From Thermoanaerobaculia bacterium (lineage in GTDB: Bacteria; Acidobacteriota; Thermoanaerobaculia; Multivoradales; J023): a DNA stretch of 64,000 nt. Made by a program: the position numbers and the translations under genes. The stretch is taken from contig JAUIJL010000018.1 of assembly GCA_030431255.1 (NCBI GenBank), positions 1 to 64,000 of the forward strand. Reading direction: 5' to 3'. Below the pieces are notes generated by a model that saw nothing but the letters and a program-made list of their open reading frames with translations, was not told the DNA's origin and did not search any database. Below are positions 3,699 to 23,271 of the stretch, in pieces. Within the stretch, counting starts at the first letter, position 1. Each line of letters begins with the position of its first letter.

Positions 3699-3779
3699 GG
3701 TGTCGAGATTCCTGTGTCTCATGCTCGATTTGAAGGGGCCGGTCGGTCGGCCACCGGCGATTTCGGTGCTCATGGATGG

Positions 3780-3805
3780 GGAGTCCGGCCGGTCACCGAT
3801 TCCCG
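3780..3805 (-). promoter_or_regulatory. Bipartite promoter-like element before solute-binding protein
   Basis: On the minus strand box 1 is CGGGAA starting at 3805 and box 2 GGACTCC starting at 3786, 19 nt apart. It lies 81 nt before the start codon at 3698 and 70 nt from the divergent copy at 3875-3900. Confidence 0.7.
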
Positions 3806-3874
3806 AAATTTCAACAGACGATTTGCAAAAATCACCATCGCGTTGGAGGAAGATCCGGATTTGAGGCTCTTTTT

Positions 3875-3900
3875 GGGGAAAAGGAGCGGCTTCGGACTCC
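3875..3900 (+). promoter_or_regulatory. Bipartite promoter-like element before Ser/Thr kinase
   Basis: GGGGAA starts at 3875 within a TTTTTGGGGAAAA stretch and GGACTCC starts at 3894, 19 nt apart. It is 55 nt before the ATG at 3956. If one of the downstream ECF sigma factors recognises this element, the operon is autoregulated. Confidence 0.75.
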
Positions 3901-3955
3901 CTGTCCACGAGTCGGTCGTCACGCGGGGCGGCCGATGATTTGGAAGGAGAACCCA

Positions 3956-5185
3956 ATGGAGCCGAGAGTAGTGACGAATTGGGACGAGATCGAATCGCTC
4001 TTTTTGCGAGCCTTGGAAGTCGACCCCGAGGACCGCGTCGACTGGATAGAAAAAGCCTGCGCGGGTCGATCCGAGCTGCGAGCCGAGCTCGAGTCTTTGC
4101 TCAGGGCGGACTCCGTCCTAGAAGATACCGCTTCTTGCGCGCCTCGATTCCCCATGGGGCCTCTGCTCATGGAGCCGTCCCCCTCGGAGCCCGCCCCGAA
4201 TCTTTCGTCAGGCACCTTGGGCGAGTATCGGCTCCTGCGTCGGCTCGGCAAGGGCGGCGCGGGCACGGTCTACCTGGCCGAGCCCCTCGGGTCCGGAGCG
4301 TCGGCCGATCGGGTAGCGATCAAGCTCTTTCACCGGAGCCTGAATCGCGGAGACCTCCTGAGCCGCTTCGACTCGGAGGTGCGGATTCTAGGCATGCTCG
4401 ACCACACCCACATCGGTCGGCTGCTCGACACGGGTCGAACCGCCAAAGGTTTTCCGTACATCATCTTGGAGCACGTAGACGGCCTCCGGCTGCTCGATCA
4501 TTGCGAAAGGGAAGGCCTCGGCTTGGAGCAAAGACTGAGCCTCTTCATGGATCTTTGCTCCGCCGTGGAGCACTGCCATCGACGGGAGATCGTTCATCGA
4601 GACATCAAGCCTTCCAACGTCATGGTCACCCGCGAGGGCATGGTCAAGCTGCTCGACTTCGGGATCGCCAGGACGGGCTCGGAGGACCGGGAGCGGCGAC
4701 CGACGGTCGAGACTTGGATCGATGATCGGCTGATGACGCCCCGCTACGCGAGCCCGGAGCAAATACGAGGTCGCCGCGCGACTCACCTGAGCGACGTTTA
4801 TTCCTTGGGGGCGCTCCTCTATGAGCTGTTGACGGATAAGTGCCCATATGAGCACGGGCTCACGGGGCACGGCAAGTCGGACATTCGGCGAGCCGTGCTC
4901 AAAGTCGCCCCCCTGCCGCCGAGCCGAGTGGGAACGCTTCTCACCGGGGTCGAGGCCGGGGAGGATCTGGCGGCCCGAGCGAAAGACCTCGACAGAGTCG
5001 TGCTCAAGGCGATGGCCAAACATCCGAAGAGGCGTTATGCCTCGGCCGCGGCATTGCGGAAAGACGTTCGCCGTTTCCTCCTGGGTCGGACCGTTCGAGC
5101 CCGCGGCCTCGCCCCGAGATGGAGAGACCTCCAGGAGCTAGGGCGTTGCCGATTGGCGATGATCTCTTTGCTCGCCGATCGTTGA
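3956..5185 (+). CDS. Soluble Hanks-type Ser/Thr protein kinase
   Basis: 409 residues. A helical N-terminal region (WDEIESLFLRALEVDPEDR..., residues about 9-52) of the type found before the kinase domain in acidobacterial and planctomycete kinases precedes a complete kinase domain at about 91-370: glycine loop LGKGGAG near 98-103, ATP-anchoring Lys123 (AIKLF), HRDIKPSN at 214-221 and DFG at 234-236, then an APE-equivalent ASPEQ. There is no membrane segment and no sensory C-terminal domain; the protein stops about 40 residues after the kinase fold, shorter than the many relatives that carry TPR or WD40 repeats. The start ATG at 3956 has GGAAGGAGA upstream. It is followed by two sigma-factor genes on the same strand. 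Kinase-ECF pairs in these phyla are known as a signalling arrangement in which the kinase controls the sigma factor; that role here is inferred. Confidence 0.93.
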   Translation: MEPRVVTNWDEIESLFLRALEVDPEDRVDWIEKACAGRSELRAELESLLRADSVLEDTASCAPRFPMGPLLMEPSPSEPAPNLSSGTLGEYRLLRRLGKGGAGTVYLAEPLGSGASADRVAIKLFHRSLNRGDLLSRFDSEVRILGMLDHTHIGRLLDTGRTAKGFPYIILEHVDGLRLLDHCEREGLGLEQRLSLFMDLCSAVEHCHRREIVHRDIKPSNVMVTREGMVKLLDFGIARTGSEDRERRPTVETWIDDRLMTPRYASPEQIRGRRATHLSDVYSLGALLYELLTDKCPYEHGLTGHGKSDIRRAVLKVAPLPPSRVGTLLTGVEAGEDLAARAKDLDRVVLKAMAKHPKRRYASAAALRKDVRRFLLGRTVRARGLAPRWRDLQELGRCRLAMISLLADR

Positions 5186-5312: not shown

Positions 5313-5921
5313 TTGACCCACCCAGCGCCCCACATCACGGAACGGCTCGAAGACCTCTGCCAAGGCGACCGAGAAGCTGCGACCTGGCTCTACGACGAGC
5401 TCGGGCCACCTCTTTTCAGACGACTGAAGCAGCGCTACATCCGCCTCGGTCTCGACCCCGACGACCTGCTCCAAGACGCCTTCGTTTTTTTCTTCCGAGA
5501 CGACGGGCGCGTGCTCCGCCGTTTTCTCGATGAGACGCCGGAGGGCTCACGCGATCTCGAAAGCCTGGAGAGCTTTCTCTGGAACCAGGCGTGCGGCATC
5601 GCCAGCAACCGGCTTCGCTCGAGGCGTCGGGACAAATCCGTGCCTATCGGTGAGGCGCCCGAGCGTTTCGGCGGCCGCAACCAGGAAAAAACGGCCTTGG
5701 CCAAAGATACCCTGGCTCGTTTGGAGGAATGCCTGGCCAAGGGCGCGGAGCGGACTTACCTTTATTTCAAGCTGCGGTTTTGCGACGGTTTGTCGCCGGA
5801 ACAAATCCGCGAAACTACCGGGTGGGAGAAGAAAGTCGTCTACAAGCTGCGAGACCGGCTCAATGAAGCCGTCGACCGCTGCGCCGGCAAGCTGGGATTG
5901 AGAGGGAGGTCTCTTTCGTGA
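5313..5921 (+). CDS. ECF-like RNA polymerase sigma factor (first of an overlapping pair)
   Basis: 202 residues. Region 2 is visible as the stretch around LGLDPDDLLQDAFVFFF (residues about 44-60) and region 4 as LRFCDGLSPEQIRETTGW followed by KKVVYKLRDRL near 150-180, a helix-turn-helix for the -35 element. The linker is long and includes a basic RLRSRRRDK segment. The likely start is TTG at 5313 with GAAGG about 10 nt upstream; no better ATG exists. The gene begins 127 nt after the kinase stop with no separate bipartite element, so it is probably cotranscribed with the kinase. Its TGA overlaps the GTG of the next sigma gene, which indicates translational coupling. Region 2 and 4 are more divergent than in the next gene, so assignment is good but the promoter it reads is unknown. 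Confidence 0.85.
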   Translation: MTHPAPHITERLEDLCQGDREAATWLYDELGPPLFRRLKQRYIRLGLDPDDLLQDAFVFFFRDDGRVLRRFLDETPEGSRDLESLESFLWNQACGIASNRLRSRRRDKSVPIGEAPERFGGRNQEKTALAKDTLARLEECLAKGAERTYLYFKLRFCDGLSPEQIRETTGWEKKVVYKLRDRLNEAVDRCAGKLGLRGRSLS

Positions 5922-6499
5922 CCGAGGCTCGCTTCCCGCCGGATGACATTACCGAGCTCTTGGGAACTTGGGGAGCGGGTGACGCCGAGGCTCTGGAGCA
6001 GCTGGCGCCGCTGGTCTACGCCGAGCTGCGGGATCGTGCCGTATCCTTGCTCAAGGGGGAGCGTAGGGATCTGACCTTGCAGACCCAAGACTTGGTGCAG
6101 GAAGCGGTGCTCCGGCTGATGGATCAACGGAACACGCAGTGGCAGAATCGATCGCAGTTCTTTGCCGTCGCCGCCCGCATGATGCGCCGGGTGCTCGTGG
6201 ACCATTGCCGGCGAAAGCGTCGAGCCCGGCGGGGAGGGGGTCTCAAGCGGATTCAAATGGAAGAGCTGCCCGACACCACCGACGAAAAGACCTCGGACCT
6301 GATCGCTTTGGATCAGGCCTTGGACGACATGGCGGTCATGGACACCTCCCTGGCGAGGATCGTGGAGCTACACTACTTCGGAGGCTTGACTCAAGAGGAG
6401 GTGGCGGAGGTGGTCGGCACCTCCGAGCCCACGGTCCGGCGGCGCTTAAGAGCGGCCAGGGCGTGGCTCTATCGAAGCATGACGGGAGAAATACCGTGA
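5918..6499 (+). CDS. ECF-type sigma factor (Sig70-like, kinase-associated group)
   Basis: 193 residues. It resembles the ECF-like sigma subgroup common in Acidobacteriota and Planctomycetes: ITELLGTWGAGDAEALEQL at the N-terminus, region 2 with LQTQDLVQEAVLRLM (about 53-67) and FFAVAARMMRRVLVDHCRRKRR (about 81-103), and region 4 with VELHYFGGLTQEEVAEVVG and PTVRRRLRAARAWL (about 148-185). The GTG start at 5918 overlaps the previous stop codon by four bases (GTGA). It is the clearer of the two sigma genes and the best local candidate for reading the GGGGAA-N13-GGACTCC element that precedes its own operon; this link is inference. Twenty-seven bases after its stop another copy of that element drives the next gene. 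Confidence 0.92.
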   Translation: MTEARFPPDDITELLGTWGAGDAEALEQLAPLVYAELRDRAVSLLKGERRDLTLQTQDLVQEAVLRLMDQRNTQWQNRSQFFAVAARMMRRVLVDHCRRKRRARRGGGLKRIQMEELPDTTDEKTSDLIALDQALDDMAVMDTSLARIVELHYFGGLTQEEVAEVVGTSEPTVRRRLRAARAWLYRSMTGEIP

Positions 6500-6637: not shown

Positions 6638-7489
6638 ATGAGCACCTCGAAAACGGATATTCCACAAGACCCGGAAGAGCTTCTGTGGAGCTTGGCATCC
6701 AGCCATCGGTCCGTGAGCTCTGGAGAGCAGCCGACGAAGCTCAGCGACGATCAGCTGCTCGCCTACCGCTCCGGGCAGGTGAGTGAATCCGAGCGCCGCC
6801 CGATCGAAAAAGCCCTCGCCCATGATTCGGCCCTGCGAGCACGGCTGATCGAGCTCGCAGGCGTCCACCCCGACGCTCCCTCCGCTGAAACCAGAGCTCG
6901 CGCCTTGGCGGCAGCTCCGGGCGCGGCGGAGCGCCCGGCCGACTCCGGGGGAGGGGGCCGTGTTTTGAGCTGGCCCGGTGCGGCGAGCCGTCGCAAGCAG
7001 TTGACCCTCTTGGCCGCGACTTTGGTGACCGTCCTTGGAGCCTTCCTGGTGCTCCAGCCCGGTTCTCACGAGCCCTTGCCCGACGGCTTCGGGTACAGTC
7101 TGTCGACAACGGGTCTCACCGAGGTCCGCTCTGCGACCTCGACCGAGCGCCTCCAGGCACTCCCCCAGACTCTGGTGAGAATCACTGCCGCCCCGACCGG
7201 GCAAACCATGGCTGATCTGGATTTCGGCCTCTACCGCCGAGATGGCGACCGGCTGGAACGTCTGGACATCGGCAAAGGCATAGAGCTTGAAGTCGTCCGC
7301 GGCACCGCCGAGCTGCGTGCCCGCGCGGTCGATCTCGTAGGCGACAAGCCCGGCACCTACTCCCTGGTGGTTGCCGTCGGCCGTGCCGGCGCGCTACCCC
7401 GCTCGGGGGTAGTGCTCCCGGACGCCGCCGACCCTTCGATCGTGCTGCTCGAGCAAGAGTTGACGATCCTCCCTCCGCAAGATCTCTGA
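6638..7489 (+). CDS. Single-pass membrane protein resembling an anti-sigma factor
   Basis: 283 residues. The N-terminal third has the layout of anti-sigma domains: LSDDQLLAYRSGQVSESERR (residues about 34-53) followed by a helix IEKALAHDSALRARLIEL, matching the shape of the zinc anti-sigma fold but without the His and Cys zinc ligands. A Pro/Ala/Gly-rich linker leads to one membrane segment at about 127-142 (TLLAATLVTVLGAFLVL), then an outer domain of about 130 residues with beta-strand character and no recognised family. Directly downstream of two ECF sigma genes and preceded by its own bipartite element, it is best read as a regulator of one of those sigmas, holding it at the membrane. Function is inferred from layout and position; sequence similarity alone would not prove it. 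Confidence 0.6.
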   Translation: MSTSKTDIPQDPEELLWSLASSHRSVSSGEQPTKLSDDQLLAYRSGQVSESERRPIEKALAHDSALRARLIELAGVHPDAPSAETRARALAAAPGAAERPADSGGGGRVLSWPGAASRRKQLTLLAATLVTVLGAFLVLQPGSHEPLPDGFGYSLSTTGLTEVRSATSTERLQALPQTLVRITAAPTGQTMADLDFGLYRRDGDRLERLDIGKGIELEVVRGTAELRARAVDLVGDKPGTYSLVVAVGRAGALPRSGVVLPDAADPSIVLLEQELTILPPQDL

Positions 7490-7534
7490 GCCGCTGGCTC
7501 CCACTTCTGTCCAGCCGCGGCGCTCCGGTGAGCC

Positions 7535-7560
7535 GGGGAATCGTCCGTCGTAGGGACTCC
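7535..7560 (+). promoter_or_regulatory. Bipartite element before a receiver-domain remnant
   Basis: GGGGAA starts at 7535 and GGACTCC at 7554, 19 nt apart, both boxes exact. The downstream gene is decayed, so this promoter appears orphaned. Confidence 0.65.
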
Positions 7561-7561
7561 G

Positions 7562-7720
7562 CCTCGGCGGCGATGACTTCCTCACCAAGCCGATCTAGAA
7601 ACCCGAGCTACTGGCCCGGATTCAACCTTAGTTGAGGTTGGCGGCGCTCCACCGTAGGTTGGAGGAGCAAGTCAAGTCCCAAGAAGTCGAGATCGAGACC
7701 CTGCACGGATTTCTCTCGAT
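7562..7720 (+). pseudogene. Remnant of a response regulator/hybrid protein (end of receiver plus coiled coil)
   Basis: Conceptual translation gives GDDFLTKPI, a stop, KPELLARIQP, a stop, then LRLAALHRRLEEQVKSQEVEIETL. This is the usual end of a receiver domain (the Lys-Pro region and last helix) followed by the typical linking coiled coil of a signalling protein. Two in-frame stops and the missing first half of the receiver show it is a fragment. It lies just behind an intact bipartite element. The full-length relative in the window with the same receiver end is the hybrid sensor at 17129-21010. Confidence 0.6.
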
Positions 7721-7762
7721 TGCGCCTCGTTCAAGAAGATTTGCGACGATGAAAGTTCTTTC

Positions 7763-7788
7763 GGGGAATCTTCGGGGTGCCGGACTCC
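7763..7788 (+). promoter_or_regulatory. Bipartite promoter-like element before structured RNA A
   Basis: GGGGAA starts at 7763 and GGACTCC at 7782, 19 nt apart. The first stem of the RNA starts only 8 nt after box 2, which fits box 2 being a -10-like element with transcription starting at about 7790-7796. Confidence 0.7.
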
Positions 7789-7795
7789 TCCATAA

Positions 7796-7976
7796 ACGAG
7801 AGGCCCGGCTCGGAGAGGAGCGCTGGGAGCCTACGAGCCGGCGCCTCTCGTCGATGAAACCCGCCTTTTGGGCGATCCGAGAACGGTCGGCCTGGTAAAT
7901 CTACCGCCAGGGTCGCTCTAGGAGGCGGGACTGGGGTCATCGATCGAGCCGCGGAGCTCTTCCGTGGCTTTCGCTT
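7796..7976 (+). ncRNA. Candidate structured noncoding RNA, copy A
   Basis: No convincing coding frame. Paired segments seen by eye: ACGAGAGGC (7796-7804) with GCCTCTCGT (7843-7851); CCGGCTCG (7805-7812) with CGAGCCGG (7834-7841); CCCGCC (7860-7865) with GGCGGG (7924-7929); GATGA (7853-7857) with TCATC (7937-7941). It ends in a terminator-like hairpin AGCCGCGGA/TTCCGTGGCT followed by TTTCGCTTTT. A second copy at 9270-9452 keeps the stems with compensating changes and keeps a 46-nt central core (from GGGCGATCC to CAGGGTCG) unchanged. I could not match it to a known RNA family. It has its own promoter-like element and a separate element precedes the next protease gene, so it is more likely a free small RNA than a leader. 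Confidence 0.6.
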
Positions 7977-8011
7977 TTAGTGCGCTCGTCTTCAGGTTCC
8001 GGGTAATAAAC

Positions 8012-8038
8012 GGGGTAAAAGCTCAGGAGTGGGGCTCC
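8012..8038 (+). promoter_or_regulatory. Decayed copy of the bipartite element after RNA A
   Basis: GGGGTAAAA starts at 8012 and GGGCTCC at 8032, 20 nt apart. The surrounding sequence aligns with the intact element at 9489-9514 after RNA B, so RNA and promoter were duplicated as one block of about 245 nt and this promoter copy has degraded. Confidence 0.4.
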
Positions 8039-8098
8039 TTTTCGGCCATCAACTCGACTGAAGCCGGCAGGCAATCTTTTGAGATATCGAGATTCCTT

Positions 8099-8124
8099 GG
8101 AGATTTTCCAGTGGTGCGGACTCC
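8099..8124 (+). promoter_or_regulatory. Bipartite element (weak box 1) before metzincin gene
   Basis: Box 2 GGACTCC starts at 8118; box 1 at 8099 reads GGAGAT, two mismatches, with the standard 19-nt spacing. It ends 85 nt before the ATG at 8210. Confidence 0.5.
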
Positions 8125-8209
8125 CTATTGATGAAGGCAGAGATAAGCGAACCGGTGTTGTACAGGTCGATATCTCAACAGCAGACTTGAAACTACGAAG
8201 AGGAATCCA

Positions 8210-9121
8210 ATGAAGCACCCACTCTCTCGAATCCTGATCACTTGTGTCGCCATGATTTGCTTCGTTGTACCCGCTGCCATGGCGGTTACCTCGGCCGTGA
8301 AGCCTGTTTACTACATACCGACAGATAAGGCTTGGAGCCCCTGGGATTTCCATGGCGTGCAATGTGGTGTTCGCAACGTTCAGCGCTGGTACTCGCGGGA
8401 GCTGCCGAATGACAATATAAAGTTCGACAAGCTTCTGACTTACTACGGTAATTTCTCTTCGAATCACTGTTTGAACGTCAATATCGGGGATTGCATTGCC
8501 GACGTTACAAACGGCACGGGTATCGATCCCTGGGACCTTGGGCCGGACCGTGCCAAGCTTCTGATTATCGGGCGCGGATTCCAAGGCCTTGCCGGAGGTC
8601 AGGGCGACACGGCGGGCCGCGGATTTGTGGTGGTCGGAGCGGAGTCGTTAATCGCACCGTCCGAATGCGCCGGCCAGCTTTGGTGTAATCAACGGAGATG
8701 GAACGCCACGGTGGCTCACGAGCTCGGTCATGCGTTCTCCTTGTCCCATGTCACCGACCCCGACTCGATCATGGGTTCCATGGAAGACTGGGAGAAGCAG
8801 CATCTCACCGGAAGTGAGCCGTCGACTGTGGCCTCCGATCTCGCGACAGCGGCGAAGGATCCGAACTGGACCCGCTGCGAGTTCGATGAACAATGCGCCT
8901 CGAACCGTTGCGGTTGCAACTGGGGCAACACGATGTACTGTCTACCGAGCTCTGCTTATCCGACGTCTTGCCAAGGGGGATCGATTCCCAATTGGGAGTA
9001 TTGTCGGTTCGATTCCCAGTGCGCGAGCGGCTACTGCGAGCCGGATTGGAAGGGCGAGAACGTTTGTCTTCCCCACACGGGCTACCAATATTGCCCTAAC
9101 ACGAACATCTTCATCCCTTGA
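8210..9121 (+). CDS. Secreted metzincin-type zinc metalloprotease with C-terminal Cys-rich repeats
   Basis: 303 residues with a signal peptide ending near AAMA (about residues 1-25). The zinc site is HELGHAFSLSH at 170-180 (HExxHxxxxxH), followed by a Met-turn SIMGS at about 186-190, the signature of metzincins, with Ser where Gly is usual at position 8 of the motif. The last 80 residues hold two short disulfide-rich repeats of the form CxxDxQCASxxC...CLP. The ATG at 8210 has AGAGGA upstream. A full paralogue lies at 13220-14131 and a truncated one at 49386-49789. It probably degrades protein outside the cell; the exact peptidase family is not resolved. Confidence 0.88.
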   Translation: MKHPLSRILITCVAMICFVVPAAMAVTSAVKPVYYIPTDKAWSPWDFHGVQCGVRNVQRWYSRELPNDNIKFDKLLTYYGNFSSNHCLNVNIGDCIADVTNGTGIDPWDLGPDRAKLLIIGRGFQGLAGGQGDTAGRGFVVVGAESLIAPSECAGQLWCNQRRWNATVAHELGHAFSLSHVTDPDSIMGSMEDWEKQHLTGSEPSTVASDLATAAKDPNWTRCEFDEQCASNRCGCNWGNTMYCLPSSAYPTSCQGGSIPNWEYCRFDSQCASGYCEPDWKGENVCLPHTGYQYCPNTNIFIP

Positions 9122-9256
9122 CACGCCTGGACTTTCCCCGGTTTAGAGGACAAAAATGGTCTTTCGAGCAAGAGAGGTCCCGGTGCCGAACCATGTCCCT
9201 CAAATTCGCCGGAACTTCGCCGAGAGATCGTCGAGTTTGTCCGAGCCGGAGATAGC

Positions 9257-9263
9257 GGACTCC
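9257..9263 (+). promoter_or_regulatory. Box 2 only of the bipartite element before RNA B
   Basis: GGACTCC at 9257-9263, 7 nt before the first stem of RNA B, the same geometry as for RNA A. The expected box 1 position (9238) reads TGTCCG, so box 1 is missing and this copy may be silent. Confidence 0.4.
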
Positions 9264-9269
9264 TTTGAA

Positions 9270-9452
9270 GATGAGAGGCTCGGAGGGGAGCGGTGGGAGC
9301 CCGCGAGCCGGCGTCTCTCATCGACGAAACCCACTTTTATTTGGGCGATCCGAGAACGGTCGGCCTGGTAAATCTACCGCCAGGGTCGTTTCAGGGAAGG
9401 CGGGACTGGGGTCATCGATCGAGCCGCGGAGCTCTTCCGCGGCTTTCGCTTG
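9270..9452 (+). ncRNA. Candidate structured noncoding RNA, copy B
   Basis: Second copy of the element at 7796-7976. Outer stem GATGAGAG (9270-9277) pairs with CTCTCATC (9315-9322); relative to copy A, a C:G/G:C-type pair region changes to U:A on both sides, so pairing is kept while sequence differs. The central core is identical to copy A. The final hairpin AGCCGCGGA/TTCCGCGGCT is followed by TTTCGCTT. Copy B lies upstream of the zincin-lectin gene at 9575, which has its own promoter-like element at 9489. Confidence 0.55.
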
Positions 9453-9488
9453 TTGTGGAGGCGTTTTCAGGTTTCTGGGTAAAAAAAC

Positions 9489-9514
9489 GGGGAAAAAGTT
9501 AAGCGGCAGACTCC
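9489..9514 (+). promoter_or_regulatory. Bipartite promoter-like element before zincin-lectin gene
   Basis: GGGGAA starts at 9489 and box 2 at 9508 reads AGACTCC (one mismatch), 19 nt apart; 60 nt before the ATG at 9575. Confidence 0.68.
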
Positions 9515-9574
9515 TTTCTGTTGACGGGGCGGTGTTGCCCCGAGTCAAGCACCTAATTTCATGAGGACCGCTCG

Positions 9575-11578
9575 ATGAAAATCCCTCGCCTTTCCTCTCC
9601 TCTCACCGTCCTGACCCTGACCGGCGTCGCAATCTTGTCCCTGCTGGTGCCCGGATCCGCTCCAGCCGAGCCTGGTTGTTTCGACTCGTCGCCGGTGACC
9701 CTGACCTATCGTTATGGAACGACACCTTTCACCTCGCGAGCCCAATTGGATGCCCGCGAGCGCCAGATCGCGCTGGCGGAAATTCCCCCGCTGGCGAGCA
9801 TCGACCTGCCGCCTCAAACCAAGCTTGATGCCGACATGATCCGGCAGATCCGTGAAATGCCGGAGTATTGGGAAACCCGCTGTAACCGAAAAGTGCGACG
9901 CCTCGAAGTCGTGATCAGCAAATCGGCTATAGATATCGTCAACTCCAACCAAAGCTTCTTCGGAACCAATATTCAAGAATACTTGCGCGCTCATGTCGCC
10001 TGGATGAACAAAATGGTCTTGGAATCCCAGGGCGAATTCGACACCTTCTGGGAGTTGGACCGGGTGATGGTGGTCAGCAACAACGTGGTGCAAGGGGAAC
10101 AACCCCACCAGTGCCATACGCCTGTGAGTCATGGTTGGCAGGTATGCAACGACAAGAGCTACAGTTGGTGGGCCAACGATCGCCTCAACGGAGTTACCGG
10201 CGATATCCCCTACGACATCGATTCCCGGTGGGTATTGACCGATGATTGGGCCGAATCGATCATGAACAGCTCTACCTGGCCAAAGAGAAGGATGGACCCG
10301 CTCACCGGAAAACGTTTAATGATGGACTTCGCCTTGATCCACGAGCTTTTTCACCACGTTTGCATGGGTGATATCTACCATTATGAGCCTGGAGATTTCC
10401 GAGTACCTATCCCAAATGGTCGCTACCTCAAATTTAGAGAAACTGAAGAAAACGAGAACAGCAATTTTGCCCGTGAAACTTCCGCCTCCAATCTCACCCT
10501 GATTGATGAGCGAGCGAGACAGTACTGCATCGATCACAATCCCAAACTCAAGCGTGCTTGGCAAGACACCGTGGGTTTCCTCAACAGCTCCGACTCCACC
10601 TTACCCGCTGAGGGTTACGTAGAACCCTACGGCGCCTCATTGTCGAGCCCCAAGATTCGGGTCAACTACCACGGATGGAGCGGGAATGTCGAAGGCTGCT
10701 ATTTCGGAAAAGGGCTGGATCAAGTCGTGCAGAGTCCGTCGGCTTACGCCAGTCACAGCTCGACCAGCTGTTCCGTCTACCTTTGGGGAGACTACATGGA
10801 TCACGCGTGGCCAGTGAGCTACGTGGTGCTCAAAGTGAATTGGGGAGGCACTCGCTTCGAGCTGCCGATCGTGATTCAGCGCCTCCTATTCAACGATTTG
10901 GCGTGGAGCAACGATCCCGACGGCTGGCTCCAAATCAGCCTTACTAACCATTTCGGATACGTCCTGGGGCAGTTGCGCAACAAGATCCTCTCTACTGGGA
11001 ATACAGTTGTGAATATCAACGAACCCTACCAGGTGCTGGTGGAGCAGCGGGAAGAAGTCCGTCTGATGACGGACTCACTGAAGGTTTTTGCTCAGGCCCA
11101 ACTGCACGGCTCGTCGAGCGATGCGATTTGGGGGCTGCCGTTCCAGAGCAATCCGCAGAAAGAGATCTGCGACGGGCGGGACAACGACGACGACGGCGGG
11201 ATCGATGAAAGCGACGTTTGTGATTGTCGCACCTACGGACCGTATGAGATCTGCGAGGAGCGCGTGGAATGGGAAGAGGCAAGAACCGCCTGTAAAGCCA
11301 AGGGTAAAGAGATGTTGGTCATCGATTCCGGCACCGACCGGTACTACTTCAGGGATCGCCACCAGCACTTTCTGACCCATTGGAATTATTGGGTCGGCCT
11401 CACAGACCAACTGAACGAAGGGCAATGGCGAGAGCTCGACGGCTCGGCTGCCACCTACAACTATTGGGCCCCCGGAGAGCCCAACGGCGGAACGAATGAG
11501 AGTTGTGCCGTGCTGACCGGCTCGATCACGTGGAACGATCTCTCGTGCCAGTGGGAAAACTCTTTCATCTGCGAATAA
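9575..11578 (+). CDS. Secreted zincin-like protein with MopE-type motif and C-type lectin domain
   Basis: 667 residues with a signal peptide ending near SAPA (residue 31). A zincin motif HELFHHVCMGD sits at about 256-266, i.e. HExxH with Asp eleven residues from the first His, the spacing of metzincins that use Asp as third ligand, but Cys replaces the usual Gly. At about 532 a CDGRDNDDDGGIDE segment matches the Ca/metal-binding motif seen in MopE-like proteins. Residues 553-667 form a C-type lectin domain with WVG, the EPN sugar-binding tripeptide, WND and the closing Cys pair. The EPN triplet usually favours mannose-type sugars in animal lectins. A close paralogue lies at 21277-23271. The likely role is a surface-targeted or secreted hydrolase that binds glycans; proteolysis is inferred from the motif only. 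Confidence 0.82.
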   Translation: MKIPRLSSPLTVLTLTGVAILSLLVPGSAPAEPGCFDSSPVTLTYRYGTTPFTSRAQLDARERQIALAEIPPLASIDLPPQTKLDADMIRQIREMPEYWETRCNRKVRRLEVVISKSAIDIVNSNQSFFGTNIQEYLRAHVAWMNKMVLESQGEFDTFWELDRVMVVSNNVVQGEQPHQCHTPVSHGWQVCNDKSYSWWANDRLNGVTGDIPYDIDSRWVLTDDWAESIMNSSTWPKRRMDPLTGKRLMMDFALIHELFHHVCMGDIYHYEPGDFRVPIPNGRYLKFRETEENENSNFARETSASNLTLIDERARQYCIDHNPKLKRAWQDTVGFLNSSDSTLPAEGYVEPYGASLSSPKIRVNYHGWSGNVEGCYFGKGLDQVVQSPSAYASHSSTSCSVYLWGDYMDHAWPVSYVVLKVNWGGTRFELPIVIQRLLFNDLAWSNDPDGWLQISLTNHFGYVLGQLRNKILSTGNTVVNINEPYQVLVEQREEVRLMTDSLKVFAQAQLHGSSSDAIWGLPFQSNPQKEICDGRDNDDDGGIDESDVCDCRTYGPYEICEERVEWEEARTACKAKGKEMLVIDSGTDRYYFRDRHQHFLTHWNYWVGLTDQLNEGQWRELDGSAATYNYWAPGEPNGGTNESCAVLTGSITWNDLSCQWENSFICE

Positions 11579-11603
11579 CCCCCCACCGTCACTGAGCGAC
11601 CGA

Positions 11604-11645
11604 CGGCCCGGGCATCGCGATTTCGATGCCCGGGCCGTTTTGTGT
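11604..11645 (+). terminator. Strong Rho-independent terminator after zincin-lectin gene
   Basis: CGGCCCGGGCATCG (11604-11617) pairs perfectly with CGATGCCCGGGCCG (11624-11637) around a 6-nt loop, followed by TTTTGTGT. Confidence 0.88.
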
Positions 11646-11711
11646 CTGGTCGCCGAACCGGATTCTCGGCCCGTCGGCCGGGGGTAGAAGCGGTCGGGCG
11701 CGGACTCTTTT

Positions 11712-11737
11712 GGGGAATTGCCCTTCTGGTGGACTCC
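11712..11737 (+). promoter_or_regulatory. Bipartite promoter-like element before glycosidase gene
   Basis: GGGGAA starts at 11712 after TTTT and GGACTCC starts at 11731, 19 nt apart; 58 nt before the ATG at 11796. Confidence 0.75.
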
Positions 11738-11795
11738 TTTTTTACCAGGAGCCGGTTTTCAACCCCCCGGCTTCCGACAAGGAGAAGGAGAACCC

Positions 11796-12845
11796 ATGAG
11801 ACAGAAATTCGCTTGGTGGATGTGCGCCGTCACTCTTTTCTTAGCAGCTGCGAGCACGGCTTTAGCCCAAGGCCCTAATCATCACCGCATCGGCCTCAAC
11901 GTGGGCTGGCAGTTGGTCGCCAATCGTGTGCAAGGGGTGGTCAACGAGTCGGTGGCCATCGGAGTCGGCACCGTACGCATGGACGTCCGTCCGCGCGATA
12001 TTTACGATCCCGCCCAGAATCACATCACGCCGCAGCATTACGCCACGGTGATGGACCAATTCAACGCCGCCGGTATCAAGGTCCTGGTGGTGTTCGGCTC
12101 CCACGGCTTCCACGGCTCGAAACGCGACGCGGCTCATTTCAACGCGTGGGGATACCAGGTTTGCAACCACTACTACCCGACGAGCTGGGGCAACGCCCAC
12201 GTGATGAATTACCTCAACACGATCGCGCCCTACGTCGACGCCATCAAGTACAAGAGCAACTTGGTGGGAATCGAAATTTGGAACGAGGTGACCAACTACT
12301 CCAATCACCTCTGTGCCGCGGATTACGGCTACATGATCACCGAAGCCAAGCTCCGCTGGCCGAGCCTGACGATCGGCATCTCCACCGAGAGCCACAATTC
12401 GTCGGCCTACTCGTGGCAGTACGTGGAGAAGCTCACCAACAACACCGACAAGGTCAACTGGTATAAGCACACCCACGGTTGGCAGGTGCCTTGGGACGTC
12501 GCCATGCACCACCCCTACAGCAACTACCGCAACAGCAACTCGGTGAACAATTACCTGTGGTACCAGTCTTATTACATGAAACAGCGCCAACCGCGGCCTG
12601 TGTGGTTCACCGAGATCGGTTGGACGACCCAATACGGCGTCTACGAGCAGGAAGACCGGCTCGAGGACGCCATCGACCTGACGATCAACAACAATTATGC
12701 CGACAAGGTGTTCTGGTACCAGATGTACAACTGCAACAGCGGTACCGGGGACTTCGGCTTGAAGAGCGGTTGTAACGTCCCGGATTACCCTTGGGATCGA
12801 CGCCCTGCTTGGTGGACCATGGAAAACCGACTGAATTGGAAGTGA
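11796..12845 (+). CDS. Secreted clan GH-A glycoside hydrolase (TIM barrel)
   Basis: 349 residues with a signal peptide (LFLAAASTALAQ, cleavage after about residue 25). A single TIM-barrel domain fills the rest. The clan GH-A catalytic pair is visible: acid/base Glu164 in IEIWNEV and nucleophile Glu273 in WFTEIGW; an early VRMDVRP strand and GIKVLVVFGSHGFHG also fit. There are no accessory domains. The start at 11796 has GGAGAAGGAG upstream; an earlier in-frame ATG at 11718 lies before box 2 of the promoter element and is unlikely. The family could be GH5 or GH39-like; substrate cannot be told from sequence. The two larger glycosidases at 25867 and 28808 share the catalytic layout but not close sequence. 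Confidence 0.85.
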   Translation: MRQKFAWWMCAVTLFLAAASTALAQGPNHHRIGLNVGWQLVANRVQGVVNESVAIGVGTVRMDVRPRDIYDPAQNHITPQHYATVMDQFNAAGIKVLVVFGSHGFHGSKRDAAHFNAWGYQVCNHYYPTSWGNAHVMNYLNTIAPYVDAIKYKSNLVGIEIWNEVTNYSNHLCAADYGYMITEAKLRWPSLTIGISTESHNSSAYSWQYVEKLTNNTDKVNWYKHTHGWQVPWDVAMHHPYSNYRNSNSVNNYLWYQSYYMKQRQPRPVWFTEIGWTTQYGVYEQEDRLEDAIDLTINNNYADKVFWYQMYNCNSGTGDFGLKSGCNVPDYPWDRRPAWWTMENRLNWK

Positions 12846-12854
12846 GCGACCGAC

Positions 12855-12884
12855 GGCGACTCGTCGCTCGAGCGACGAGTCGCC
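12855..12884 (+). terminator. 30-bp perfect palindrome after glycosidase gene
   Basis: GGCGACTCGTCGCTC is followed directly by its reverse complement, ten bases after the stop codon. No U-tract follows, so it could be a terminator, an mRNA-stabilising hairpin or a dyad binding site; position favours transcription termination. Confidence 0.55.
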
Positions 12885-12920
12885 ACCTTACGTGACGCAG
12901 TCACGGCTCGAAACCTGCGG

Positions 12921-13040
12921 TTACCCCTTTGACTTCGCCCCAGCTACCGTTGGGGAAGGAGGGCGTGGAGTCGAACCGACTATCGACCACGGTCAGCAAT
13001 TAAGAATCCATCGAATACAACCTGATGAGCACCGGGCGGG
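12921..13040 (-). pseudogene. Decayed fragment of a LamG-domain gene
   Basis: The stretch aligns by eye, with gaps, to the LamG-coding DNA of the phospholipase-like gene near 38460-38580 and to the glycosidases (shared landmarks: CGCCCCAGC, TTGGGGAAGG, TATCGACCACGGTCAGCAA). No open frame is kept. It is a leftover of a minus-strand copy of that module inserted or left between the glycosidase and metzincin genes. Apart from this and the promoter at 13102 the interval 12885-13219 shows nothing else. Confidence 0.5.
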
Positions 13041-13101
13041 AGCAAACCTTGGTTTATTGCTAAGTGGTAGGTAGCTCTTGGCAGAATTGCCCAAACTTTT
13101 T

Positions 13102-13127
13102 GGGGAATCGTCGAAAGCGCGGACTCC
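13102..13127 (+). promoter_or_regulatory. Bipartite promoter-like element before second metzincin gene
   Basis: GGGGAA starts at 13102 after TTTTT and GGACTCC starts at 13121, 19 nt apart; 92 nt before the ATG at 13220. Confidence 0.75.
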
Positions 13128-13219
13128 TCGTAGGTGTAGGTCGAGATGGACGGTTGGTAATCGTAACCAGTCGACATCGAAGCCAGACGCCCACTCTCTT
13201 AGGATAAAAGGAGAACCCT

Positions 13220-14131
13220 ATGATGAAACCGCTCTTTCGCGCCCTGATTTCCTGTATTGCGCTGAGCGCATTTTTGGCCCCGGCAGCTATGGCGGTGACC
13301 TCGTCCGTCAAGCCGGTCTATTACGTCCCGACGGACAAGTCCTGGAGCTTTTCGGACTTTCACGGCGTGCAATGCGGTGTTCGGAACGTTCAGCGTTGGT
13401 ATTCCCGCGAGTTATTCAACGACAATGCGAGATTCGATAAGGTCATTACCTATTACGGCAACTACTCCTCCAACCATTGCTTGAACGTCAACATGGGCGA
13501 CTGCATCGCCGACGTGGTGAACGGCACGGGCATCGATCCTTGGACCAATGATAAGTATCGCGCCAAGTTGCTGATCATCGGCCGCGGATTTCAGGGCTGG
13601 GCCGGGGGTACCGGTGATACCGCGGGCCACGGCTACGCGGTGGTCGGGGCAGAGTCTTTGGTCGCACAGTCCGAGTGCGCCGGCAATTGGTGGTGCAATC
13701 AAGAAGTCTGGAACGGTACTGTGATTCACGAGCTGGGCCATACCTTCTCCTTGCCCCATTCCGCCGATCCCAACTCGATCATGGGCGCCCACAGCGATTT
13801 CGAGAATAAGCATTTCACCGCCGGCGAGCCATCGACGGTGGCCACCGACCCCGCGACTCCGACGAAAGATCCGAATTGGACCCGCTGCGAGTTCGACGAG
13901 CAATGCGCCTCGAATCGTTGCGGCTGCAACGGCGGCAACACCATGTACTGCCTGCCGCACTCCGGTTATCCGAAATATTGCTCCTCGGGCTCGATTCCCA
14001 ATTGGGAGCACTGCCGGAACGACTCCGACTGCCAAAGCGGCTACTGTGCGCCCGATCATAGGGGCGAATACGCCTGCCTTCCGCACACGGGTTACCAATA
14101 CTGCCCCAACACCGACATCTTCATCCCTTGA
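13220..14131 (+). CDS. Secreted metzincin-type zinc metalloprotease, paralogue of 8210-9121
   Basis: 303 residues, same length and layout as its paralogue: signal peptide ending AAMA, zinc motif HELGHTFSLPH at 170-180, Met-turn SIMGA, and two C-terminal disulfide-rich repeats ending CLPHTGYQYCPN. Two adjacent ATG codons (13220 and 13223) follow AAAAGGAG; either could be used. The proteins are alike throughout, while the intervening genes differ, so they are duplicates that have separated. Likely an extracellular endopeptidase; substrate unknown. Confidence 0.88.
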   Translation: MMKPLFRALISCIALSAFLAPAAMAVTSSVKPVYYVPTDKSWSFSDFHGVQCGVRNVQRWYSRELFNDNARFDKVITYYGNYSSNHCLNVNMGDCIADVVNGTGIDPWTNDKYRAKLLIIGRGFQGWAGGTGDTAGHGYAVVGAESLVAQSECAGNWWCNQEVWNGTVIHELGHTFSLPHSADPNSIMGAHSDFENKHFTAGEPSTVATDPATPTKDPNWTRCEFDEQCASNRCGCNGGNTMYCLPHSGYPKYCSSGSIPNWEHCRNDSDCQSGYCAPDHRGEYACLPHTGYQYCPNTDIFIP

Positions 14132-14159
14132 GTTGAACCGACGCGCTCTCGTCGTCGGT

Positions 14160-14200
14160 GGGGTGGCTCCTGCGTGTTTGGGCTCAGGGGCCACCCCTTT
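14160..14200 (+). terminator. Terminator after second metzincin gene
   Basis: GGGGTGGC (14160-14167) pairs with GCCACCCC (14190-14197) followed by TTT; long loop. Confidence 0.65.
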
Positions 14201-14247
14201 CGGGAAGAGATCCCTTTTAAACGGATTAAAGAATCCAAGGAGAAACC

Positions 14248-15330
14248 ATGGCTGCTCAGGAAGCTTCCGCGGTTTGCTCTTTTGACTCCCGGGGCTGTGA
14301 ATTCCGATCCGTCGGAGCTTGTAGATATCGTCGATATTTCGCTCCGAGACGCGGGCAACCCAGGGCCGCCGACCGCGGCTCGGCTCGACGCGAGCGGGTC
14401 TTGGTGACCGGAGCGACGGGTTTTATCGGCCGATGGACGGCCCGCGCTCTGGCCCAAGCCGGAGCCGACCTGCACGTGGTCGTCCGTCGGGAGACGAGCC
14501 CGTCTTTCGGCGTATCTCATCGGCGAGATCTTGCGCGACCGGGGGAGCTCGCCGAGCTGATCAAGACTCTTAAGCCTTCCAAGGTCTTTAACCTTTGCGT
14601 TTACGGGGTGGACCGCCGCGAGCGCGACGAAAACCTGGCTTGGCGCCTGAATCGAGACTTGGTGCTCGAAGCGGGGCGAGCGCTGGCCGATACCGGTGGG
14701 CGCTTGATTCACGTCGGAAGCGCGTTGGAATACGGAGAGGTGGGCGGTGATCTCCGGGAGACCGGCCCGGTCAACGCCACGACCCTATACGGTCGGAGCA
14801 AATTGGAGGCGAGCCTGGGCCTTCGAGACCTCGCGCGCGAAAAAGGGCTCCAGGCCGTGACCGCGCGGATGTTCTCGGTCTACGGACCGGGAGAGCATCC
14901 AGGAAGGTTGTTGCCGTCTCTGGTGAGCGCTTCTGAAGGTGTGGGAGTCGTGCCGCTCAGCGAAGGGCTTCAAAAGCGGGATTTCACCTACGTCGAAGAC
15001 GTGGTGGAGAACTTGCTCAAGCTGAGCCGAGCCTCGTTCGAGCCCGGTGAGATCGTGAACCTGGCTTCGGGAAGGCTCACGACCGTCCGGGACTTCGTCT
15101 GCGAGTCGGCGAAGCAACTGGGCATCGGCAGAGAGCGGCTAGCTTTCGGATCGGTGCCGGTGCGTGGGGAGGAGATGGCCCACGATCCCATCAACATCGA
15201 TCGCCAGAGAGCGCTTCTCGGGCCCGTGACCTGGGATTCGGTCGCCGGGGGGTTGCGCCGCACGGTGGCGAGGCTGGCGGATGGCTCGCGCCTAGCCGGC
15301 TGCCCGATAGAGCAATTGGAGCATCGCTAA
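14248..15330 (+). CDS. NAD(P)-dependent epimerase/dehydratase (extended SDR)
   Basis: 360 residues. The Rossmann core begins only at about residue 50 with RVLVTGATGFIGRW (TGxxGxxG nucleotide motif); the active-site Tyr-Lys is YGRSK near residue 178, after a Ser in HVGSALEYG; SVYGPGEHPGRLLPS and RDFTYVEDVVENLL are typical of the family that converts nucleotide-activated sugars. The first 48 residues are Arg-, Ser- and Cys-rich and unlike relatives. Although AAGGAG precedes the ATG at 14248, a later start may be the real one. No bipartite element is found upstream. The 3' end overlaps the convergent gene at 15292-16050 by 39 nt. Probably part of sugar nucleotide metabolism for cell-surface glycans. 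Confidence 0.85.
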   Translation: MAAQEASAVCSFDSRGCEFRSVGACRYRRYFAPRRGQPRAADRGSARRERVLVTGATGFIGRWTARALAQAGADLHVVVRRETSPSFGVSHRRDLARPGELAELIKTLKPSKVFNLCVYGVDRRERDENLAWRLNRDLVLEAGRALADTGGRLIHVGSALEYGEVGGDLRETGPVNATTLYGRSKLEASLGLRDLAREKGLQAVTARMFSVYGPGEHPGRLLPSLVSASEGVGVVPLSEGLQKRDFTYVEDVVENLLKLSRASFEPGEIVNLASGRLTTVRDFVCESAKQLGIGRERLAFGSVPVRGEEMAHDPINIDRQRALLGPVTWDSVAGGLRRTVARLADGSRLAGCPIEQLEHR

Positions 15331-21276: not shown

Positions 21277-23271
21277 GTGAAGTATTTTCGTCTCTCTACC
21301 CTGCTGATCCTTTGCAGCTGTGCCGTTTCTTGGACGCTCTTGCCGAGCGAAGCCGTGGCACAGCCCGGATGTTACGACTCGTCGACCGTGAGCTTCACCT
21401 ACGCTTCTGGAACGACACCCTTTTCGACTCGCGCCCAATTGGACGCCGCGGAGCTCGCCCTTGCCAGAGCCGACATGCCCGCACTGGCTCTGGTATCGCT
21501 ACCTCCTCAAACCAAGCAAGACGCCGACACCGTTCGGGCGATTCGCGAGGCGTATTGGGATAGCCGGTGCGACCGAAAGGTGAGGAAGCTCGAATTCGTC
21601 ATCTCGGAAGGCGCGATCCAGAATTTCAACAACAACCAGGCCTTCTTCGGTACCAATATTCGAGACTACCTGCGGGCGCATGTCGCGTGGCTGAACAAGA
21701 TGGCCTTGGAATCTCAAGGTAAGCTCGACGCTTTTTGGGTTTTGGATCGGGTCATGGTCGTCACCGACAACGTGGTCCAAGGTGCCCAGCCCGGGCAATG
21801 CGACACGATCGTGAACCACGGTTGGCAAGTGTGCAACAACAAGAGCTACAGCTGGTGGGCGAACGATCGCCTCAATGGAATCGAGGGTGATATTCCCTAC
21901 GACATCGATTCTCGCTGGGTGCTGACCGACGATTGGGCCCAAGCGTTGCCCGGTTGGGCCGTCCGCAAAATGGATCCCATAACGGGCAATTACCTAAGGA
22001 TGGATTTCGCCCTCATCCATGAGCTCAAACATCACCTGTGCATCGGCGATATCTATTGGTACAACCCCGGCCGTTTCAGCACGCCGATTACCGGTACCAG
22101 CCGGAGGTTGCAATTCGACGTAGCGCACGTGAACCAGAACAACAACTTCTACAACGCCTCGGCCTCCAATCTCACCTTGATGGAAGAGGGGGCGAGTCAG
22201 TATTGCACCGCGAAGAACCCGAAGCTCAAACGGGGCTGGCAAGACGGCATCGGATTCCTCTTCAGCGGCGACAGCACGATGCCGGCAGAAGGTTATGTCG
22301 ATCCCTATACGGCTTCTCAGTCGACCGCGTCGATTCGAGTGAGCTACCACGGCTGGGCCGGATCCGTAGAAGGTTGTTACTTCGGCAAGGGAGTGGATGT
22401 CGGTGGCGTCAACCGCATCCAACCGATCACCTCTTTCCCGGCTTCCCACACCAGCAGTTATTGCCAGGTCAATCTGAGCGGCAACTACATGGACGAGGCC
22501 TACCCGGTCAGCTACATGGTGCTCAAGGTCAACTCGAGCGGCACTCGATTCGAGCTGCCGATGGTGATCCAGCGTCCATTGCTCAACCACTTGAAGTGGA
22601 GCAACGATTCGGACAGGAGGCTCTCGATCAGCCTGACCAACCACTTCGGTTATACGTTGAGCCAATTACGGAACAAAATCAATTCCACCGGCAGCAGCGT
22701 GGTGTCGATCACGGCCCCCTACCAGGTCAAAGTGGAGCAGGGGCAAGAGATCACCCAGATGGTGGATCCGCTGAAGGTCTTTGCCCAAGCCGATCTCTAC
22801 GGCTCGGTGAGTGACGTGATTTGGGGACTGCCCTTCGAGAGCAATCCTCAACTGGAGACCTGTGACGGACGAGACAATGATTTCGACGGCCAAGTCGACG
22901 AAAACAACGTTTGCGATTGTCGGACCTGGTCGAGCTATGAGATCTGCGAAGAGAAGGTGGAATGGGAAGAAGCCAGAACCGCCTGCAAGGCCAAGAGAAA
23001 AGAAATGTTGGTCTTCGACTCTTCCTGGGACAACACGGTTTTCGGTACCTATTACCCGTATTTCCTCACCCATTGGAATTATTGGGTGGGAACTACGGAT
23101 CAATTGAATGAGGGGCAATGGCGAAATCTCAACGGCAAAGCCCCGAAGCCCACCCACTGGGCCGCCAACGAGCCCAATGGCGGCACGAACGAGAATTGTG
23201 TGTCGTTGAGCGGGCCGCTCAAGTGGAACGACCTATCTTGCGGCTGGGAAAACTCGTTCATCTGCGAGTAA
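21277..23271 (+). CDS. Secreted zincin-like protein with MopE-type motif and C-type lectin domain (paralogue)
   Basis: 664 residues, colinear with the protein at 9575-11578. Signal peptide ending near EAVA (about residue 28); zincin motif HELKHHLCIGD at about 248-258 with the same Asp at position 11 and the same Cys in place of Gly; CDGRDNDFDGQVDE metal-binding segment; C-terminal C-type lectin domain with WVG, EPN and WND. The shared unusual Cys in both copies argues that the variant zinc site is functional or at least conserved. It is transcribed divergently from the sensor kinase, so sensor and effector may be coregulated. Confidence 0.82.
   Translation: MKYFRLSTLLILCSCAVSWTLLPSEAVAQPGCYDSSTVSFTYASGTTPFSTRAQLDAAELALARADMPALALVSLPPQTKQDADTVRAIREAYWDSRCDRKVRKLEFVISEGAIQNFNNNQAFFGTNIRDYLRAHVAWLNKMALESQGKLDAFWVLDRVMVVTDNVVQGAQPGQCDTIVNHGWQVCNNKSYSWWANDRLNGIEGDIPYDIDSRWVLTDDWAQALPGWAVRKMDPITGNYLRMDFALIHELKHHLCIGDIYWYNPGRFSTPITGTSRRLQFDVAHVNQNNNFYNASASNLTLMEEGASQYCTAKNPKLKRGWQDGIGFLFSGDSTMPAEGYVDPYTASQSTASIRVSYHGWAGSVEGCYFGKGVDVGGVNRIQPITSFPASHTSSYCQVNLSGNYMDEAYPVSYMVLKVNSSGTRFELPMVIQRPLLNHLKWSNDSDRRLSISLTNHFGYTLSQLRNKINSTGSSVVSITAPYQVKVEQGQEITQMVDPLKVFAQADLYGSVSDVIWGLPFESNPQLETCDGRDNDFDGQVDENNVCDCRTWSSYEICEEKVEWEEARTACKAKRKEMLVFDSSWDNTVFGTYYPYFLTHWNYWVGTTDQLNEGQWRNLNGKAPKPTHWAANEPNGGTNENCVSLSGPLKWNDLSCGWENSFICE

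Follow-up and report, generated by a model that had tools for sequence, protein, structure and literature searches.

A duplicated block of about 180 nt in a Thermoanaerobaculia genome: candidate twin small RNAs of a local sigma-factor regulon

Within the window, by which we mean the whole 64,000 nt stretch of Thermoanaerobaculia DNA that was analyzed, a block of about 180 nt is found twice on the forward strand, at 7796-7976 (copy 1) and 9271-9451 (copy 2). The question raised by this locus is what kind of element the block is: a small RNA, a leader of the genes that follow, a site acting as DNA, a short reading frame or a leftover of duplication. Our analyses indicate that the block is a real, constrained, orphan element. 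An RNA nature is likely and the structure is partly supported. The reading we prefer, to which we give about an even chance, is that of a twin small RNA (sRNA) of about 180 nt belonging to a local ECF sigma-factor regulon, as an extra noncoding transcription unit. Feature coordinates are collected in Table 1.

Duplication and uneven divergence of the two copies

The duplication, noticed earlier by eye, was borne out by blastn, with the copies sharing 89% identity. When copy 2 was searched against the whole 10.2 Mb genome, 40 matches were listed. Two of them were the copies, the query at E 1.7e-96 and copy 1 at E 1.4e-61; the remaining 38 were no better than chance, with a lowest E of 0.038. 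A third copy was not found in the genome with blastn, nor with R1, a covariance model covering the middle and 3' part of the block in 132 columns without hairpin 1. Run within the window with filters off, R1 recovered both copies at E 6.3e-30 or better. Among the 76 rows obtained up to E 10, the next-best (E 0.013) was considered as a diverged third copy and rejected, being coding and having broken pairs. The genome thus holds two highly similar copies of the block, the criterion for sibling sRNA pairs being at least two such copies per genome.

Homology between the copies extends over about 260 bp. It starts with a promoter box 2 (CGGACTCCT, from 7781 and 9256) and stops at the end of box 2 in the promoter-like element that follows (8041 and 9517). 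The duplicated block, 7781-8041 and 9256-9517, is bounded on both sides by a promoter box 2. Judging from this layout, it looks as if the repeated promoter boxes were the recombination points of the duplication.

Table 1. Positions of the block segments, promoter-like elements and genes in the window
Feature	Position	Strand	Remarks
ECF sigma factor	5918..6499	+	PF07638 E 1.4e-48; TIGR02999 E 2e-57
Copy 1 promoter-like element, complete	7763..7788	+	Exact motif; PWM 23.7; rank 20 counted from 0
Copy 1 hairpin 1	7796..7851	+	MFE -39.0 kcal/mol; starts about 8 nt past box 2
Copy 1 invariant core	7867..7914	+	48 nt, 0/48 differences; contains the 46 nt core described earlier
Copy 1 conserved 3' part	7923..7972	+	1/50 differences; terminal hairpin 7946-7970
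Decayed promoter-like element after copy 1	8013..8038	+	PWM 10.4; above non-sites, below likely working promoters
Promoter-like element of the 8210 gene	8099..8124	+	PWM 28.3; leader about 79 nt
Metalloprotease-like protein, 303 aa	8210..9121	+	HELGHAFSLSH; weak Pfam metalloprotease matches below cut-off
Copy 2 box 2, no box 1	9256..9264	+	CGGACTCCT; PWM -8.5; rank 118 counted from 0
Copy 2 hairpin 1	9271..9321	+	MFE -24.0 kcal/mol; 5' arm 5 nt shorter
Copy 2 invariant core	9340..9387	+	Identical to copy 1 core (0/48)
Copy 2 conserved 3' part	9398..9447	+	1/50 differences; terminal hairpin 9421-9445
Promoter-like element of the 9575 gene	9489..9514	+	PWM 20.1; leader about 54 nt
667 aa protein	9575..11578	+	C-terminal Lectin_C E 3.5e-15; HELFH by eye

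Divergence between the copies is distributed unevenly. Differences are found at five of the six positions of the spacer behind box 2, 7/51 positions of hairpin 1, 3/15 of the linker leading to the core, 3/8 of the variable stretch after the core and 17/65 of the flank out to the next box 2. The core itself is free of differences, which confirms the earlier claim of a 46 nt core identical in both copies (GGGCGATCC...CAGGGTCG), and the 3' part with its hairpin holds a single one. The RNA body as a whole carries 14 substitutions in 172 positions against 17/65 for the flank (Fisher P 0.0008), and the core and 3' part together 1/98 against 9/35 for the near flank (P 2e-5), with these P values somewhat flattering as the segments were picked after the alignment was seen. 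Because all parts of a duplication are of the same age, barring gene conversion, such unequal divergence points to selection acting on the block.

Recent gene conversion could likewise keep the core identical, and counts against our preferred reading to that extent. Taken further, the block would be a functionless relic, its copies alike only through recent duplication or local gene conversion. We regard such a relic as improbable. Copy 2 does lack a full promoter, no homologue was found in the collections searched, and just upstream of copy 1, at 7535-7760, lies what reads by eye as the receiver end of a response regulator broken by stop codons (the stretch has no Pfam match). However, a relic sits poorly with a spacer changed at nearly every position and a much-changed flank on either side of a nearly unchanged core and 3' part, although gene conversion tracts limited to the core might produce the same pattern.

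The kind of change also differs along the duplication. In the body 13 of the 14 substitutions are transitions; for the flank the count is 7 of 17 (P 0.007). A transition excess is to be expected in a paired RNA, because G-U pairs are tolerated.

Folding and coding potential of the block

Hairpin 1 of copy 1 begins near the inferred transcription start. The earlier note had read its outer stem as changing from ACGAGAG/CTCTCGT to ATGAGAG/CTCTCAT between the copies, and this proved to be a true double change (C-G to T-A, RNA positions 2/55 by the fold of copy 1). A second double change, A-T to G-C at positions 21/37, sits deeper within the same hairpin. By the fold of copy 1, two of the 14 substitutions are at unpaired positions and the others fall in 10 pairs. 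Of these pairs, two carry double changes, six carry single changes that keep pairing, and two are broken. When substitutions were placed at random on this fold, at least two double changes with at most two breaks occurred in 0.7% of trials (joint P 0.007), and for hairpin 1 only, at least two double changes with no break occurred in 0.15% (P 0.0015). The outcome depends on the fold chosen: the whole fold of copy 2 gives no double change and two broken pairs (P 0.18), and its hairpin 1 folded alone one double change and two broken pairs (P 0.13), neither of them significant. Drawn from two sequences only, the covariation is thin and the structural evidence modest.

The copies also differ in how well they fold. 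Compared with dinucleotide shuffles, the whole of copy 1 is far better folded (z -5.18), whereas the whole of copy 2 is no better than its shuffles (z -0.87). The first 60 nt from the inferred start of copy 1 reach z -4.17, the lowest among 23 promoter leaders; the 60 nt from 9270 in copy 2 reach -2.33, which is not below the leader at 9489 (-2.45). Strong folding as a trait of leaders throughout the regulon was considered and rejected, with the 23 leaders averaging z -0.38 and 60 random positions -0.34.

Consensus folding of the two copies was compared with column shuffles. Shuffles as good as the real alignment numbered 4/300 for the whole block, 2/300 for hairpin 1, 22/300 for the middle (not significant) and 0/300 for the 3' hairpin, which has an alifold z of -4.59. 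These outcomes suggest that both end hairpins are likely real, the structure of the 3' hairpin being well supported and that of the 5' hairpin moderately so. The forward strand gave a consensus z of -2.66 (4/300 shuffles as good) versus -1.79 (15/300) for the opposite strand, and is favoured as the RNA strand. Several stems had been described as common to the copies. This holds for the hairpins at the two ends, with the qualification that a 5 nt indel trims an arm of hairpin 1 in copy 2, and does not hold for the middle stem of copy 1, two pairs of which are broken in copy 2. Likewise, both copies had been said to end in a terminator-like hairpin. The hairpin hardly differs between the copies, but it has a weak T tract. 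A terminator scan was passed by copy 1 only, with copy 2 not flagged, and over 7400-14300 the scan found 6 terminators against a shuffle mean of 6.7, which is no excess.

A conserved protein frame, named earlier as an observation that would speak against an RNA, was looked for, and none of the frames both starts and ends alike in the two copies. One frame stays aligned from the 5 nt indel as far as a TAA that both copies have (...KPAFWAIRERSAW and ...KPTFIWAIRERSAW). A reading of the block as a small protein gene or a leader peptide could draw on the facts that a 3 nt insertion preserves this frame and that seven of the 14 substitutions fall at its third codon position, and also on a TTG in the core, common to both copies, from which 17 codons run open in copy 1 versus 37 or more in copy 2. 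Yet the sole ATG that copy 1 has in the first frame is replaced by ACG in copy 2, leaving no common start codon there, a 2 nt indel gives the TTG frame different ends in the copies, and conservation runs on beyond the common TAA (7899-7914 and 7923-7972, with one change in total). A coding role is therefore very improbable. On the reverse strand, the frame behind an ATG common to both copies extends over at least 50 codons in copy 1 but over 13 in copy 2. A Pfam/NCBIfam scan of the two forward-strand frames returned no family except a 15-residue Pfam match below cut-off (E 0.07).

Promoter motif, sigma factor and downstream genes

The promoter-like elements of the window follow the motif GGGGAA-N13-GGACTCC, with a purine-rich stretch about 6 nt further on. 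With spacers of N13-16 allowed, 14 of the 15 exact matches in the genome fall inside the window, and reversed-pattern controls gave 0 and 3; the fifteenth, on another contig, is about 80 nt ahead of a 356 aa open frame. When the N13 form alone was searched in 40 genomes, the own genome included, it was matched 15 times in the own genome (control 0) versus 0-2 times in each of the other 39, three of which had a control match. The regulon, with its bipartite motif and a start-site signature, spans positions 1471-59285 on both strands, the 14 exact matches being contained in these 58 kb. Near matches to the motif precede metalloprotease-like, C-type lectin, LamG/DUF7402 multidomain and M23 peptidase genes, as well as a kinase gene and an anti-sigma-like gene.

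Sites were scored with a position weight matrix (PWM) built from 20 hand-picked sites. Those around the RNA copies (7763, 8012/8013, 8099 and 9489) were left out of the training, as were five doubtful sites (7535, 20036, 31666, 37679 and 49566). Every position of the window was scored on both strands, which is the basis of the ranks in Table 1. The matrix separates sites from background, the best non-sites reaching 3.4 (a site shifted by one base) and 3.2. The start of the response-regulator-like remnant at 7535 has the exact motif but a poor score of 11.1. According to the earlier note, the first stem follows box 2 of a promoter-like element by 7-8 nt in both copies. Box 2 (CGGACTCCT) does stand ahead of both, but box 1 is found at copy 1 only.

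The ECF sigma factor encoded upstream of the block likely reads the motif, a link made by proximity only, since the genome contains 60 PF07638 (ECF sigma) matches at E <=1e-10. A sigma-like gene at 5313-5921, whose best match is below cut-off, overlaps the ECF gene in tandem, and the open frame of a Ser/Thr kinase (3776-5185) lies ahead of both. ECF factors associated with kinases are a topic of the literature (PMC8999054). The gene that comes after the sigma genes, at 6638-7489, has a weak anti-sigma match below cut-off (E 0.0018).

Each copy had been placed upstream of a secreted metalloprotease gene. The upstream position is correct, and the protease assignment needs amending for the 9575 product, which has a C-type lectin domain and in which the protease motif HELFH was seen by eye. 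Secretion of both products was judged by eye from their N-termini. The 8210 gene has a paralogue at 13220-14131 (75% identical) with a promoter-like element and a leader of about 86 nt, and the 9575 gene one at 21277-23271 (66% identical) with a promoter-like element and a leader of about 61 nt. Ahead of both paralogues the RNA block is absent, as searched within the window using R1 with filters off, a model that excludes hairpin 1; the RNA is thus not tied to these gene families. By eye, the leaders of the two 303 aa protease paralogues (8123-8209 and 13128-13219) appear to have a stem in common, GATA/TATC in one and GATG/CATC in the other. The metalloprotease was sought in seven genomes of the family, the own genome included, and found in the own genome only; across genome contigs, seven pattern stretches were obtained and no relative.

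These data bear directly on whether the block could be a cis-acting leader of the attenuator or riboswitch-like kind, in which the 3' hairpin would stop or allow transcription that comes from 7763 and heads for the 8210 gene. Each copy is followed by a gene of like orientation, the 3' hairpin is conserved, and in both copies pairing is possible between the 3' hairpin region and the 5' arm of hairpin 1 as an alternative partner (-25.9 and -28.1 kcal/mol, values computed without a shuffle control). However, both genes have a nearer promoter-like element, located between the RNA copy and the start codon and leaving a leader of ordinary length, which would put the RNA outside the main 5' UTR, the paralogues have such elements and no RNA, copy 2 is without box 1, and there is no Rfam match. 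Because of the nearer elements, the RNA-free paralogues and the missing box 1, a leader role for the protease genes is not favoured on the sequence at hand, and we hold the cis-acting leader to be possible though unlikely.

Alternatively, the conserved block could be a DNA element, for example an upstream activating region of the downstream promoters, in which the hairpins are incidental. It is located upstream of promoters, and the conserved part of copy 2 stops about 40 bp short of a good promoter-like element. Short palindromes such as ATCGAT and CGATCG can be seen by eye in the 3' part. This explanation has to contend with the decayed element right after copy 1, where the block has been kept nonetheless, and with the search by R1, which showed no third copy of the block at other promoters of the window. 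The two double compensatory changes and the preponderance of transitions suit RNA pairing better, and we find a DNA element rather improbable.

Under the preferred reading, that of twin sRNAs, the promoter at 7763 would drive copy 1, whose transcript would have a hairpin at its 5' end followed by the invariant core and would stop at or near the 3' hairpin. Such a unit would be ahead of, not inside, the main transcription unit of the 8210 gene, though some read-through into that gene may occur. That the hairpin starts where motif-driven transcription should start agrees with this. Copy 2 would stem from a duplication that reached from box 2 as far as the following promoter. As it lacks box 1, any transcript of it would come from read-through of the 8210 gene and might form the 3' end of that mRNA. 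While the sigma factor is active, the core would work as an RNA, most likely through mRNA pairing or protein binding. The duplication, the uneven divergence, the promoter-motif layout and the structure-compatible changes in the end hairpins are observed features, and from them we infer transcription, termination and action in trans. Against the same reading stand the thin covariation, the indel in hairpin 1, the missing box 1 and poor whole fold of copy 2, the weak T tract, the non-significant middle domain, the lack of a target signal and the failure to find a homologue in the collections searched.

Searches for relatives and comparison with known systems

The earlier note could assign the block to no known riboswitch or sRNA family, and comparison with Rfam gave none either: in Rfam 15 (4227 families), the window had no match at the gathering threshold and the region 7600-9700 none up to E 5. 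The covariance search of this genome and its relatives, proposed at the same time, was run and detected no homologue besides the genome's own two copies. The own genome was the sole match for R1 among 72 genomes of the order (E 0.1) and among 396 genomes of the phylum including it (E 0.01), the 395 others giving none; searches of more than 40 genomes used stricter filters and scored 47 or 8 candidates per genome, settings that distant relatives could escape.

With blastn, 14 of 98 genomes, made up of the own one and 97 relatives, were matched at E 0.01. Outside the own genome there were 14 matches of 20-42 nt in 13 genomes, the best (E 9.7e-6) covering 33 nt of the 3' hairpin. As 13 of these 14 short matches are inside open frames of at least 251 codons, they were taken as chance rather than as relatives. 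The exact 46 nt core was not found in other genome contigs, nor an exact 27 nt core in viral contigs, and a distant blastn search against plasmids and phages gave no relative of the block. Antisense targets were sought by a duplex scan of the core against 32 start regions, which yielded no signal (mean z +0.22, best -1.71). The genome has one Hfq gene, which permits action in trans but gives no support for it.

If transcribed, the block would add an unnamed small RNA to a local sigma regulon of probably secreted proteases, lectin proteins and cell-wall peptidases. The order promoter, RNA, promoter, gene would mean that a noncoding unit can join such a regulon without being a leader. A bolder and doubtful proposal is that the block represents a new orphan class of structured RNA belonging to one sigma-factor island, having a 5' hairpin at the first transcribed bases and carried on a promoter-to-promoter cassette copied by recombination at the repeated boxes, so that RNA units would join the regulon separately from genes. 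The wider value of the locus lies in the island-confined regulon, whose motif is sharp enough for experiment, and this is perhaps a better story than the RNA.

Orphan structured RNA candidates have precedent in the phylum. Acido-1 and Acido-Lenti-1 (RF01686 and RF01687) were reported as structured noncoding RNA candidates of Acidobacteria, and Acido-1 was noted for a phylum with few genomes (PMC2864571). The block is likewise an orphan structured RNA candidate. The window matches none of the Rfam families, and the comparison serves as a lead only.

The likeness to two better-known groups, the sRNAs of sigma-E and the sibling sRNAs, is one of logic and not of descent, with no sequence relation claimed. 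Sigma-E is a sigma factor of the ECF kind. RybB and MicA, under this envelope-stress sigma factor, act beside its mRNA regulon and are described as highly conserved with known targets (PMC1804206). Similarly, the block is a candidate sRNA beside a sigma-factor mRNA regulon. Unlike RybB and MicA, it is found in one genome only, is longer and more folded, and has its sigma link inferred from motif and proximity.

Sibling sRNAs such as OmrA/OmrB, PrrF1/PrrF2 and AbcR1/AbcR2 occur as two highly similar RNAs of a genome, each with conserved and with variable stretches. They are often neighbours, and duplication is given as their likely origin (PMC4211561). The copies of the block differ from these in being about 180 nt long with a gene between them, in one being without a full promoter and in being known from sequence alone. 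Like sibling sRNAs, the block comes in two highly similar copies, each with conserved and variable parts.
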